From IMG/VR virus record IMGVR_UViG_3300050342_000044, positions 1 to 29,162 of that record: DNA of 29,162 bases. One strand, written 5' to 3'. The first letter of the stretch is position 1. The number at the start of each line of letters is the position of its first letter. The notes under the pieces were generated by a model. It worked only from the letters and a program-made list of their open reading frames with translations, did no database searches and was not told where the DNA came from. Source of the DNA: a virus. The position numbers and the translations under genes are program-made. Positions 2,807 through 29,162 of the stretch are shown here, piece after piece.

Positions 2807-3169
2807 TCACTTTCTCGTGTAATACTCCCTTACGACACCTGCTGTCAATGTGATAAGCCCTACTGCCAGCAAATATATTAGTGGATAGATGAAAACTGAA
2901 AGCATAGACTCATAAGTTATTGTGGACGGCAGCATAGGTGAGAAGAACACTGTAATCCATGTGATTACAAAGGCTGCAATACAACCTATGCCCAATCCAA
3001 CCGACAACCCGTGAATAAAGCTGCTCCTATCTTCTTCATGGCGCGTTTTGTTCCCTTTTTGTTTTTCCTCAGTCTCTTTGATTTCTTCCTCCCTTTCTGT
3101 CTTCTCTGATTCTTTAACAGCTTGCTCGTTAAATGCTGATTCCTTAACTTCTATTTGCTCGCTTTCCAC
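2807..3169 (-). CDS. Small membrane protein with charged N-terminus
   Basis: The 120-residue product begins at a GTG. Residues 1-50 are very rich in Glu and Lys and probably disordered. Two hydrophobic helices follow, about residues 57-78 and 90-112, and the protein ends in a basic RKYYTR-like tail. I recognise no family. It is the last leftward gene before the block of rightward virus genes, so it could be the last host gene or a provirus-end gene expressed in the lysogen. An AT-rich promoter-like stretch (about 3200-3216) lies upstream on the minus strand. Confidence 0.6.
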   Translation of the reverse strand: MESEQIEVKESAFNEQAVKESEKTEREEEIKETEEKQKGNKTRHEEDRSSFIHGLSVGLGIGCIAAFVITWITVFFSPMLPSTITYESMLSVFIYPLIYLLAVGLITLTAGVVREYYTRK

Positions 3170-8294: not shown

Positions 8295-9092
8295 ATGACG
8301 CATTTTGACAAAGCGCTTGTAATTGGCGACATGCATGTTGGAAGCAAATATGCTCTGATGCCTCGATTTTTCCGCAACTATCGGGCCAACAGCGTGCAAC
8401 GATATATTCTCCGAAAATGGTTAGAAATGAAGGAAAACGTTGGAAAAATACCACTACTAATCCATCTCGGGGACCCCATTGAAGGCCTCGGAGAAAAAGA
8501 AAAGGGCAAATATGTTTGGACCACAGATTTAGACATGCAAGTTGAATGCGCAGCTGAGCTTGTCAAAATGCTGGACTATGACGCAGCTGTGTCCGTCAGC
8601 AGTAGCCAATACCATTCAAACGTTAACCCCGACACTGACAAATATTTCGCGGACATGATAGGTGCAAAACTTGATTTTGAACACTTCTTGGATCCTTGGG
8701 GAAATGGGTGGAGAATACATGTTCAACATTACATTCCCGTAAGTTCAAGTGGAGCATGGCAATACCGCACCACGCAACTAGCTACGGAACTTGTCGCCGC
8801 CTTGTTAAACCAACAAGAAATTGGGAAGATAAGAATTTTGATAAGAGGACACGCGCACTACTTTGTCTACGCGGGCTACAGCAGCAATCTCGCGTATGTT
8901 AATCCATGCTGGAAAGCGAGGGACCCCTACCTAGCGCGTAAAGGGTTAAGGTTCATTCCGAAAATGGGCTATACAATCTTATACTTCAACGACGACGGAA
9001 GCTTCGACTGGGACATTAAACCCTTCAACATTTTGAAGCCGGCAACCACAAAAATCGAAGTGAAAAACCATGCGAATCAGTATAAAAAGTGA
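8295..9092 (+). CDS. Calcineurin-like metallophosphoesterase
   Basis: The 265-residue protein has the family's metal-binding motifs: GDMHVG at 11-16, GD at 59-60 (HLGDPIEG) and GHAH at 185-188, with further His at 142 and 145. The usual GNHD/E motif appears as SSSQYH at about 102-107, a departure at the position that normally contributes an Asn and His. Viral members of this superfamily are often called Mre11-like or phage phosphoesterases and may process DNA or nucleotides; substrate is unknown. It sits among early genes, consistent with DNA metabolism. Confidence 0.8.
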   Translation: MTHFDKALVIGDMHVGSKYALMPRFFRNYRANSVQRYILRKWLEMKENVGKIPLLIHLGDPIEGLGEKEKGKYVWTTDLDMQVECAAELVKMLDYDAAVSVSSSQYHSNVNPDTDKYFADMIGAKLDFEHFLDPWGNGWRIHVQHYIPVSSSGAWQYRTTQLATELVAALLNQQEIGKIRILIRGHAHYFVYAGYSSNLAYVNPCWKARDPYLARKGLRFIPKMGYTILYFNDDGSFDWDIKPFNILKPATTKIEVKNHANQYKK

Positions 9093-9216
9093 AAGAATCG
9101 TCACGAAAGCTTCAGACTGGAACTTTGAAATGGAAACCTACACGTCTAGAGAGACTCTACCTTCGTTTGACATTCAAACAGTCTTAAAGTATTGGAAGCA
9201 CAAGGGGGAACTGTAA
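9070..9216 (+). CDS. Small hypothetical protein (48 aa)
   Basis: ATG at 9070 lies within the end of the phosphoesterase gene in another frame and reads 48 codons to TAA. The product has a basic N-terminus (MRISIKSERIV) and a Lys/Trp-containing end. No family recognised. Its stop comes 11 bases before the first GGANN array. Confidence 0.4.
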   Translation: MRISIKSERIVTKASDWNFEMETYTSRETLPSFDIQTVLKYWKHKGEL

Positions 9217-9227
9217 CTAAGATGGTT

Positions 9228-9302
9228 GGAGCGGAATGGAATGGATGGGAGGGGAAAGGACTTGAGAGGAAAGGACTGGAAAGGAGCGGAGGCGATTGGT
9301 TG
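9228..9302 (+). repeat. GGANN pentamer array A (15 units)
   Basis: Fifteen consecutive 5-base units in perfect register, mostly GGA followed by two variable bases (ggagc, ggaat, ggaat, ggatg, ggagg, ggaaa, ggact and so on), with three imperfect units. All GGA triplets are on the plus strand. The 26-base spacer to array B, partly AT-rich (cattaattattgtag), is the only break. Confidence 0.85.
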
Positions 9303-9328
9303 CATTAATTATTGTAGTAGAATAGAAA

Positions 9329-9418
9329 GGACTGGACCGGATTGGAGTGGTCCGGATTGGAGAGGAGGGGAAAGGAATGGTCCGGACTGGAGTGGAGAGG
9401 AGAGGAATGGAAAGGAGG
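9329..9418 (+). repeat. GGANN pentamer array B (18 units), supplies a ribosome binding site
   Basis: Eighteen units in perfect 5-base register, 16 with GGA and two with GGT. The block ggaat-ggtcc is followed by ggact-ggagt-ggaga, and variants of that order recur. The last units (GGAAAGGAGGG) form a consensus ribosome binding site ahead of the GTG start at 9432, so the array end is part of the gene's translation signal. Confidence 0.85.
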
Positions 9419-9431
9419 GATTGTTGTCAAC

Positions 9432-9950
9432 GTGAACGTTAAAAAGTGGGTTGTCTCGATTCGAGGTAAAAAACTCTTACAGAACAATCCTGAAAGCGGA
9501 AGATTAAAAGGTCCGGAAAAGGAGACTCCGCCTGAGCTTCTGCTTTACAGAGACGAGAATGGAAACATTTGCCAGCCGGCGATCCACATTAAAAAAGCGA
9601 TAGAACATGCTGCTGGCACGATAAATCGGAAATATATTCCGCTTATAAGGGCATATCTTCAAATTGAACCCGAAATGATCCCGCATAAAAATCAGAAGTG
9701 GAAGCCTTTCGGCGCGTGGACTGTGGTTAAAGCAGCGAAAAACGCCAGGGTTTGGAAGACGCGTCCAATGATTGAAAACTGGGAGTTAACCTTCACAGTT
9801 ATCTCGCTTAACCCGAAGGAATTAAACGGCGAGTTGATTAAAACCGCGTTGGAGAAGGCTGGCGCTCTCTACGGGATCGGCGACTGGCGTCCTCAGAAAG
9901 GCGGAAGCTTCGGATTATTTGAACTAGTTCAATTTGAAGAGGTAAACTAA
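9432..9950 (+). CDS. Conserved phage protein of unknown function (RxRP...GIGDWRP type)
   Basis: I take GTG 9432 as start, 13 bases after GGAGGG; longer readings into the GGANN array are low-complexity and unlikely. The 172-residue product has features I recall from a phage protein family without known function: a PAIHIKKAIEHAAG helix, a KTRPMIENWELTFTV strand block and a glycine-rich end AGALYGIGDWRPQKGGSFGLF. The G-rich end and beta strands suggest a compact alpha/beta fold. It is flanked on both sides by GGANN arrays, and a diverged copy of its last 21 codons lies downstream. Confidence 0.6.
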   Translation: MNVKKWVVSIRGKKLLQNNPESGRLKGPEKETPPELLLYRDENGNICQPAIHIKKAIEHAAGTINRKYIPLIRAYLQIEPEMIPHKNQKWKPFGAWTVVKAAKNARVWKTRPMIENWELTFTVISLNPKELNGELIKTALEKAGALYGIGDWRPQKGGSFGLFELVQFEEVN

Positions 9951-9952
9951 CC

Positions 9953-10012
9953 GGAGAGGAAGGGAGTGGAAAGGAGAGGAGTGGAATGGAGAGGAAGGGA
10001 GCAGAGTGGGGT
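9953..10012 (+). repeat. GGANN pentamer array C (12 units)
   Basis: Starts two bases after the stop codon of the preceding gene and holds 12 units in register, ten of them GGA. It runs directly into the gene-tail remnant at 10011-10076. Confidence 0.85.
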
Positions 10013-10076
10013 GAAAGACGCTGACGGCGGAAGCTTCGGGCTGTTTGAGGTAGCTAAATTTAGAGAAGTTAATTAG
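10011..10076 (+). pseudogene. Diverged 3' remnant duplicating the end of the preceding gene
   Basis: Twenty-one codons from GTG 10011 to TAG 10076 encode a peptide that ends GGSFGLFEVAKFREVN. The intact gene ends GGSFGLFELVQFEEVN. The two DNA stretches share the first 14 bases of this block and then differ at many sites, mostly synonymous or conservative, so this is the tail of a separate relative rather than a fresh tandem copy. It lies between GGANN arrays C and D. It is probably too short to be a working gene. Confidence 0.8.
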
Positions 10077-10080
10077 TATT

Positions 10081-10250
10081 GGAATGGACTGGATTGGAAA
10101 GGAGCGGAGTGGATTGGAGAGGAATGGATAGGAAGGGAGAGGAATGGGAAAGGAGCGGTCGGGCCGGGTAGGAGCGGAACGTATAGGAATGGAGTGGATT
10201 GGAGTGGAACGGACTGGAAGGGAGTGGACCGGAGTGGAAAGGAGTGAGTG
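10081..10250 (+). repeat. GGANN pentamer array D (about 34 units)
   Basis: The longest array. Units keep a 5-base register from 10081 to 10145, slip by one base near 10146 and again near 10170, then resume register to 10250. Most units are GGA plus two variable bases; a few carry GGT, GGC or GTA. It ends just before the zinc-ribbon gene at 10275. The 324-base gap 9951-10274 between genes is filled by arrays C and D and the gene-tail remnant. Confidence 0.85.
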
Positions 10251-10274: not shown

Positions 10275-10505
10275 ATGTCGCCGAAATACGACGGCAACTA
10301 TTATTGCCCCAGATGCGGCAAATGGTATCCCGTAGAGGAGATTCTTTGGTATGAAACACGGTTCGTTGATTACGAAGGAAACACGGTTTTGGTTTACCGG
10401 CGTTTTCCAATATGCCCAGTGCACCACATCCATCTTCGCACCACCGCCCACTACAGCATGAGCCAGAAGCAGCGTCGAGCGTTAAAAAGCGCGTTTAAAC
10501 CATAA
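10275..10505 (+). CDS. Zinc-ribbon protein
   Basis: The 76-residue product starts MSPKYDGNYYCPRCGKWY, with CPRC at 11-14, and a second site CPVHH about 40 residues later, giving a CxxC...CxxH(H) zinc pattern. The start follows GGATG with suitable spacing. The tail is basic (KQRRALKSAFKP). It could bind nucleic acid. It is the last gene before a U-rich terminator. Confidence 0.6.
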   Translation: MSPKYDGNYYCPRCGKWYPVEEILWYETRFVDYEGNTVLVYRRFPICPVHHIHLRTTAHYSMSQKQRRALKSAFKP

Positions 10506-11300: not shown

Positions 11301-11777
11301 ATGGTGTGGTTTCATTTGAAACGTTGGCATATTCGCCAAATAGACGACCAAGACTACATTTTCATAGACGCGAAAATAGCCAACCCAATGGATCCCAAAA
11401 AATCGGAAAAGGTTGAGTTTCTCGTCGACACGGGGGCCACAGGCTGCGCTATAAGCAGCGAGTTGGCTGAAAAGCTTGACCTGGAAGCCAGCGGAGTGGT
11501 TGACGTTGGGTTGGCTGACGGCAGCTCGAAACGCGTGAAGGCTGCATATATATTGATAGAGGTTGGCGGACGCAAACTTTACACGTGGACCATTTACGAC
11601 AAAGGTTTCACGCCGATTTTAGGCTTAGACGTTATGCGCGTGTTAGGTATCCACGTGGATGTGCCTGAAAAGAAAGTGTTGTTTCCCTGCAAAGGCTTGA
11701 AGTTGAAGCGGGTGAGCCTTTACATGGGTTTGCCAGCGGCAACATACACTTTCACACTTCAATATGGAAGAGTGTAG
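11301..11777 (+). CDS. Retropepsin-like aspartic protease
   Basis: The 158-residue protein carries the single-chain half of a pepsin fold: catalytic DTGA at residues 43-46 within FLVDTGATGCAIS, a flap region near LADGSS (71-76) and the hydrophobic-hydrophobic-Gly motif ILGLD at 106-110. Members act as homodimers with one Asp each. Such clan AA proteases occur in retroviruses and as stand-alone proteins in bacteria and archaea. Here it lies in the virus operon upstream of the terminase; it could trim a virion protein or be a defence/counter-defence factor. A separate prohead protease exists downstream. Confidence 0.75.
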   Translation: MVWFHLKRWHIRQIDDQDYIFIDAKIANPMDPKKSEKVEFLVDTGATGCAISSELAEKLDLEASGVVDVGLADGSSKRVKAAYILIEVGGRKLYTWTIYDKGFTPILGLDVMRVLGIHVDVPEKKVLFPCKGLKLKRVSLYMGLPAATYTFTLQYGRV

Positions 11778-28264: not shown

Positions 28265-28585
28265 ATGGAGCAGCAAGTAGTGTTGAAAATCGTAAGGGTT
28301 GGCGACTGTAAACAATGCGGTTTCTGCTGTGGCTTTGTTGATGGTAAAATTACTGAGGGGGCATGTAGCCATCTAACTTCAGACGGGAAATGTAGCATTC
28401 ACGATAGGCTTAATGAGTTCTGTCCAGAACATGGAAGGACACATGAAAACTGCATTAGTTATCCCACTTTACCGTTGAGGAAACAGAATCCAAAATGCGG
28501 ATACAGATTCTACATTGAAGGCTCAAACGCTGAAGTAATAAACATCGAGTTGGCTGACTGGGAGTTTCTGAGCCGACATGGATAA
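28265..28585 (+). CDS. YkgJ-like Cys-cluster protein
   Basis: The start is ATG 28265 or the in-frame GTG at 28256. The product of about 106 residues has CKQCGFCCGF, then CSHL, CSIHDR, CPEHG, C and CGYRFY, the CxxCxxCC cluster of the YkgJ family (a metal-cluster family, putative Zn or Fe-S). Most members are cellular. Its place between two virion protein genes is odd; it may be a cargo gene or may modify the virion proteins. It overlaps the next gene. Confidence 0.7.
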   Translation: MEQQVVLKIVRVGDCKQCGFCCGFVDGKITEGACSHLTSDGKCSIHDRLNEFCPEHGRTHENCISYPTLPLRKQNPKCGYRFYIEGSNAEVINIELADWEFLSRHG

Positions 28586-29162
28586 ACCAATTGCCAAGCT
28601 GAAACTGCTTACAACAAAAGGCGAAGTTGTAGATGCTATTCTCTATTGCCATCAAGAAACCACAACAATAGCTGGAACAACATACTACCTTCTAAAGCTG
28701 AACACGCCAGCAGACGCTTCTGGAACAACTCTTTCCGCTTCAACAGCAAGCGTTGCACGTGTAGTCTGGGGCAAATTTGTTTACCCGCTTACTGGCATAG
28801 CCAAGATTCTAGCCTCAACAATCTACGCAACTTATAGGGCTTACACTGGCGGAGGCACAGTTAACGCTGAAATAGACATTCTAATACGCCAAGCTGACGG
28901 AACAGTTAGAACTACAATAGCTACTGGAGTCAGCCCGTCCGCAAACCTTGGAACAGCTTGGGCAACATATACCGGAGCCGATTACAGTTTCGCAGATTAC
29001 ACGGTTGTAGACCAGACGGACTACCTTGAAATAGACTACGTAGCAAACGTAACAGCCAAAAAAGCCACGCAATACGCTTACCTAAGAATAGACGACAACA
29101 CATTAGCCCTAGCCGACCAGACAAGAAGCCAAGACTGGAGTTTTCAAGCTGCTGGTGTGACA
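28578..29162 (+). CDS. Thr/Ala-rich fibre-like protein, cut by window edge
   Basis: ATG 28578 overlaps the previous gene and the frame stays open to the window edge, 195 codons. The product is rich in Thr, Ala and Tyr and strongly beta (LILYC-like strands, GGGTVNAEIDILIRQADGT, ADYTVVDQTDYLEIDY). This kind of repeating beta pattern is typical of adhesins and tail fibres. The rest of the gene and the right provirus end lie outside the window. Confidence 0.6.
   Translation, partial: MDKPIAKLKLLTTKGEVVDAILYCHQETTTIAGTTYYLLKLNTPADASGTTLSASTASVARVVWGKFVYPLTGIAKILASTIYATYRAYTGGGTVNAEIDILIRQADGTVRTTIATGVSPSANLGTAWATYTGADYSFADYTVVDQTDYLEIDYVANVTAKKATQYAYLRIDDNTLALADQTRSQDWSFQAAGVT

Follow-up and report, generated by a model that had tools for sequence, protein, structure and literature searches.

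The stretch of DNA analysed here (the window; 29,162 nucleotides, IMGVR_UViG_3300050342_000044) is an IMG/VR contig. At its left end lies a gene for a GPN-loop GTPase with 91% identity to Candidatus Bathyarchaeota genomes; an integrase gene follows, and terminase, capsid, portal and tape-measure genes lie further to the right. This gene content points to a tailed provirus of a Bathyarchaeia host, in agreement with the archaeal virus assumed in the original prediction. In the interval 9228-10245, the provirus harbors about 73-79 pentamers of the form GGA-NN, the count varying with imperfect units, which are arranged in four blocks with a five-base register. All are on the plus strand; read in register, the minus strand of the window contains no GGANN array. 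Array A (9228-9292), a candidate vrRNA guide, has 13 pentamers, one of which is TGAGA. Array B (9329-9418) comprises 18 pentamers, 16 with GGA and two with GGT (GGTCC), and its 3' end, GGAGG, directly precedes the start of an open reading frame on the same strand (9432-9950), referred to here as vipr. Array C (9953-10012) begins 2 nt past the vipr stop and includes 12 pentamers, ten GGANN units together with AGAGT and GGGGT. Array D (10081-10245) consists of two regular blocks of 14 (D1, 10081-10150) and 12 pentamers (D2, 10186-10245), separated by a one-base shift and by irregular, register-shifted units (10151-10185). Between arrays C and D lies a short plus-strand segment (10026-10076; GGSFGLFEVAKFREVN followed by a stop) that sequence and alignment identify as the remaining 3' end of another vipr allele, which has diverged. 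The initial observation that arrays extend as far as an open frame and a gene remnant is supported, the remnant corresponding to the terminal part of the 9432-9950 gene in diverged form.

The pattern (GGANN)x4 occurs 39 times in the window and in none of 100 dinucleotide shuffles, which confirms the one-strand arrays, their register and the retention of GGA. The two following bases, initially described as almost free, are however constrained, the first being mostly G or A and the second mostly T or A. Arrays are present in three near-identical records, namely the window and the viruses L128 and L129, these last two from two different metagenomes, and an assembly artefact is therefore unlikely; array A is missing in L128 and L129. 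No run of seven GGANN units was found in 257 Bathyarchaeia genomes. GGANN repeats seldom make stop codons and frames stay open across them (e.g. 9226-9435), as would be the case for a protein-coding low-complexity repeat; yet the number of units changes by single pentamers, which shifts any frame, and the register itself shifts by one base in array D. Neither this explanation nor a simple satellite expansion accounts for the high entropy of the NN pairs, unlike that of simple-repeat loci, or for the constant association with vipr, and the satellite reading was rejected given the AGC arrays found in the same slot of sister viruses (see below); we give these two possibilities practically no weight. 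Neither direct repeats with spacers nor cas genes were observed. The original distinction from CRISPRs, satellites and coding repeats holds. The pentamer arrays are real, non-coding and, by association, functional.

The open reading frame between arrays B and C was overlooked in the original prediction; its product belongs to the RAMP proteins and accompanies arrays of this kind in other loci as well. Assuming a GTG start, the product is a RAMP/Cas7-like protein of 172 amino acids; in L128 an in-frame ATG for vipr falls inside array B. The frame has no match in Pfam or PADLOC. Since the AlphaFold prediction from the single sequence was poor, an alignment of 25 homologues (A1, built without the Escherichia phage SUSP1) was used instead, which resulted in a model with a pLDDT of 91.2 and a pTM of 0.87. 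Foldseek comparison with the PDB retrieved as best matches the backbone subunits of type VII and type III-A/B CRISPR systems (E down to 1.9e-8, TM 0.6-0.7), and the BFVD matches include a phage 'Cas system-associated RAMP superfamily protein'. Seven residues are invariant in A1 (G12, R111, W117, G144, G148, R153 and G161), and the conserved core R-x5-W ... GIGDWRPQKGGxxGxF contains the glycine-rich loop (GIGDWRPQKGG in Vipr), with invariant Gly and Arg in this loop. All 25 Vipr proteins examined match PHROG 4652, a family of unknown function. No Vipr was found in the 20 nearest host MAGs, and two were found among 257 Bathyarchaeia genomes.

Upstream of the arrays, a plus-strand gene (8295-9092) displays metallophosphoesterase-like motifs by eye (GDMH..GD..GHAH) with no Pfam match, while other vipr-bearing sister viruses have a different, Pfam-supported calcineurin-like phosphoesterase in this position; the gene is an unproven candidate member of the system. 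Downstream of array D, a zinc-ribbon-like frame of 76 amino acids with CxxC/CxxH motifs (10275-10505, plus strand) is kept in five of five vipr-bearing sister viruses and is possibly an accessory (vap) or a plain neighbor. A phosphoesterase-like gene and the zinc-ribbon frame flank vipr in all five of these viruses, the vipr-free records not covering this region. A retropepsin-like aspartyl protease (11301-11777; Pfam gag-asp_proteas) is encoded between the locus and the genes for adenine methylase and terminase.

The association between arrays and gene extends well beyond this virus. Searching IMG/VR proteins with the 9432-9950 frame retrieved two 98% identical viruses (L128 and L129) and thirteen distant ones, and every one of them has runs of GGNNN pentamers beside the gene. 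As a converse test, IMG/VR was scanned for a (GGANN)8 run alone, a search of other viruses already suggested in the original prediction. Among the 119 viral loci obtained, 20 are long degenerate arrays, with high NN entropy, and 99 are simple or short repeats; a homologue of the frame occurs in 17 of the former versus none of the latter (Fisher p=7e-18). In the three exceptions (L118, L032 and L067), the gene may sit outside the fetched stretch or, for L067, the array may be a weak one. In the wider family the third base of the fixed triplet also varies, although the sampling is biased since many loci were fetched by GGA.

These features correspond to the Viral Interference Programmable Repeat (VIPR), described in a preprint of April 2026 (PMC13142463). 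VIPR is the first RNA-guided system known whose code is non-contiguous, and it has been put forward as ancestral to CRISPR. In VIPR, Vipr is a small RAMP protein working with guide RNAs made of GGY/NN pentamers; the NN bases pair with DNA, one target base is skipped per unit, and the skipped bases fall on codon wobble positions in the targets (PMC13142463). The type system is that of Escherichia phage SUSP1, a type II VIPR of an E. coli phage, and the experiments concerned bacterial phages and prophages with GGY guides (PMC13142463). The A1 profile, from which SUSP1 had been left out, matches the SUSP1 gene at 28477-29079 (E=6.6e-35), which has GGT/C-NN arrays on both sides, in agreement with the published SUSP1 VIPR. 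The match to this Vipr and its flanking arrays identifies the window as a VIPR locus in which GGA replaces GGY, and the small (~20 kDa) RAMP protein with an RRM core and glycine-rich loop that marks VIPR is present (172 aa, pLDDT 91, Cas7-like matches). We therefore assign 9228-10245 with high confidence to VIPR, as a locus carried by a Bathyarchaeia provirus; our confidence that each array is an active guide is lower. In both systems a small homologous RAMP protein is flanked by pentamers combining a fixed triplet with NN, on a virus, and the guides are of similar length (9-16 units in published guides, 12-18 here). Unlike SUSP1, however, the window has the triplet GGA, a Bathyarchaeia host, an array B that abuts or overlaps the vipr start, and no recognizable conserved 3' tail or pseudoknot. 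The preprint gives the fixed triplet as GGY 'or a related consensus', the latter in its supplementary fig. S17 (PMC13142463). VIPR is thus an already published kind of system, of which the window is an archaeal member whose swapped triplet may be new; given the wording 'a related consensus' in the preprint, we do not claim novelty for the triplets GGA or AGC themselves.

The likeness to the Cas7-type backbone of class 1 CRISPR-Cas systems (type III Csm/Cmr, type VII) lies in the RAMP fold, the glycine-rich loop and the best structural matches in the PDB. The window differs from these systems by the five-base unit inside the guide and by the lack of a palindromic repeat/spacer array and of adjacent cas genes; the direct repeats, unique spacers and cas genes typical of CRISPR-Cas are absent, and PADLOC returned nothing for the neighbors scanned.

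Two sister viruses, L225 and L253, are 88-99% identical to the window in the DNA flanking both sides of the locus. Between these flanks they carry another phosphoesterase, a divergent Vipr (profile match E 7e-16) and AGC-NN arrays: in L225 (7332-8205) the divergent Vipr is followed by about 68 AGC-NN pentamers, and in L253 (6132-6905) by about 46. The AGC-type Vipr proteins form a very long branch of the tree and their placement is not fixed. In addition, a Bathyarchaeia genome (G120, L441:1549-2700) has a Vipr homologue with short AGT-NN runs, identified by eye. The fixed triplet therefore differs between Vipr alleles, GG not being essential. This bears directly on rival functions for the arrays, namely nucleic acid structure in the form of two-layer G-quadruplexes, or Shine-Dalgarno-like or GGA-protein-binding sites acting as a sponge or as a translational leader of neighboring genes; quadruplexes and the Shine-Dalgarno resemblance had been raised in the original prediction. 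A GG every five bases does satisfy the quadruplex formula in its loose form, the last bases of array B before vipr are GGAGG, and the vipr ATG of L128 lies inside the array; but neither quadruplex nor Shine-Dalgarno-like function is supported, as the GG is missing from the AGC-NN arrays that occupy this slot in the sister viruses next to a homologue of Vipr. Such functions also leave unexplained the association with a RAMP protein and the codon-position bias of the NN pairs (see below), and we regard them as very improbable. Sponge RNAs of the CsrB/RsmZ type have many GGA motifs, exposed in hairpin loops for bacterial CsrA. The resemblance is limited to the many GGA motifs in one RNA, whereas the window has GGA in a strict five-base register in an archaeal virus, with AGC in its sisters.

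At one and the same locus, GGA-NN cassettes are thus found in the window, L128 and L129 and AGC-NN cassettes in L225 and L253. We tentatively propose that the fixed triplet is an exchangeable code specific to each Vipr allele, and that near-identical viruses, some from the same metagenomes, swap vipr-array cassettes at this locus; the result would be orthogonal, non-cross-reacting systems, perhaps used against each other, a scenario we hold to be plausible but somewhat short of an even chance. The window bears scars of cassette exchange, namely the vipr remnant (10026-10076) and a short frame (9070-9216). The end of the latter matches the C-terminus of the L128/L129 phosphoesterase.

The three GGA-bearing viruses also document how guides change. 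As anticipated for related viruses, variable bases differ while GGA is kept: the NN pairs of array B in L128 and L129 are wholly different from those of the window beside a 98% identical Vipr. Compared with the window, array C of L128 has one inserted unit and one changed pair, and two pairs of D1 differ among the window and its relatives. In L129, array C is fused to D and the vipr remnant is lost, while array B of L128 has a seven-unit block in common with its own D1. The changes observed are thus replacement, unit insertion and array fusion. Such plasticity could also be that of decayed VIPR-type arrays, or of arrays serving mainly as recombination substrates, their guides being relics of which one or none functions; the shifted register and aberrant units of D, the TGAGA unit of A, AGAGT and GGGGT at the end of C, the vipr remnant between C and D, the fusion in L129 and the lack of a detected target would fit this explanation. 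Nevertheless, most units of every array retain GGA in three related viruses, which also share an identical D2, vipr is intact, with 98% conservation, and array B has been renewed, so that decay seems unlikely.

The composition of the NN pairs is consistent with VIPR guides. In the sense orientation, they agree with positions 1+2 of the codons used by this virus (+18.5 bits versus -2.4 +/- 4.1 for permuted pairs; 0 of 20,000 permutations as high), the reversed pairs score -22, and the phase 1+2 score is positive for each array taken separately. Such a fit is expected of guides directed at coding sequences with a one-base skip; since the signal lies in base composition per position and not in pairing, it is supporting rather than decisive evidence. 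Phase 1+2, sense or antisense, also ranks first in 24 of 27 other VIPR loci, a ranking that may partly be the default of weakly biased pairs. By analogy with the published system (PMC13142463), the arrays would be transcribed as guide RNAs on which copies of Vipr polymerize, each gripping one fixed GGA; the NN pairs would then be presented for base-pairing with DNA, one base per unit, corresponding to the codon wobble position, being skipped. Binding of this ribonucleoprotein would presumably keep genes of competing viruses or proviruses in the same host from being transcribed.

Searches for such targets returned chance-level matches only. Full guides and nine-unit windows, with skips of 0-3, were compared with Bathyarchaeia and related viral loci totalling 2.0-2.3 Mb, and no target emerged from local alignment of the guides, with shuffled controls, against related Bathyarchaeia viruses and genome stretches, from guide D2 in 44 whole virus records, or from exact IMG/VR scans for A, B, D2, D1 and C, in which extensions stop at the seed or drop to chance. 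Guide C gave three matches in 257 Bathyarchaeia genomes versus one for the control, again chance level. A skip-1 excess for guides A, B and D2 was discarded because it came from loci fetched with that same pattern, as was a skip-1 match of guide C originating from its own search pattern in the 257 genomes; the isolated match that scored best, between guide D1 of L128 and L236 (17/18 across nine units with nothing beyond), is attributed to chance. As rival viruses from the same samples are poorly covered, the absence of a target neither confirms nor refutes the proposed mechanism. Separately, an open reading frame of L226, a sister virus from the same metagenome as L225, contains an 18/18 contiguous match (3047-3064) to the concatenated NN bases of an L225 AGC guide; the AGC type might on this basis read NN without a skipped base, the single match being about chance level after multiple-testing correction.

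No invariable 3' tail shared by arrays A-D was recognized by eye, Rfam has no match in the window, and Rfam and tRNA scans of the window and its relatives revealed no common tail. Other loci show tRNA-related features next to their arrays. The AGT-NN runs of L441 are interleaved with tRNA-like stems (GGTTCGATTCC), and its guides may be processed at such tRNA-like tails. In L125 (6837-7180), segments resembling a tRNA T-arm come immediately after the pentamer arrays, and in L039 (6887-6956) a tRNA gene called by both Rfam and ARAGORN takes this position. In L034 (2768-3400, reverse complement), a constant GGAAAGGAACGGCTGTAAT-like sequence alternates with about a dozen arrays, so that the layout recalls the repeats and spacers of a CRISPR, with pentamers as spacers.

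The interest of this locus lies in its archaeal host, its altered triplet and the cassettes of its sisters, through which the relation between Vipr and triplet becomes testable. A well-supported archaeal VIPR member with a different triplet, together with the AGC cassettes of its sisters, constitutes a natural experiment on guide recognition by Vipr, in which differences in the protein can be related to differences in the triplet. The comparison of arrays shows guide change by replacement, unit insertion and inter-array fusion without spacer-acquisition machinery, and PHROG 4652 could now receive a name.
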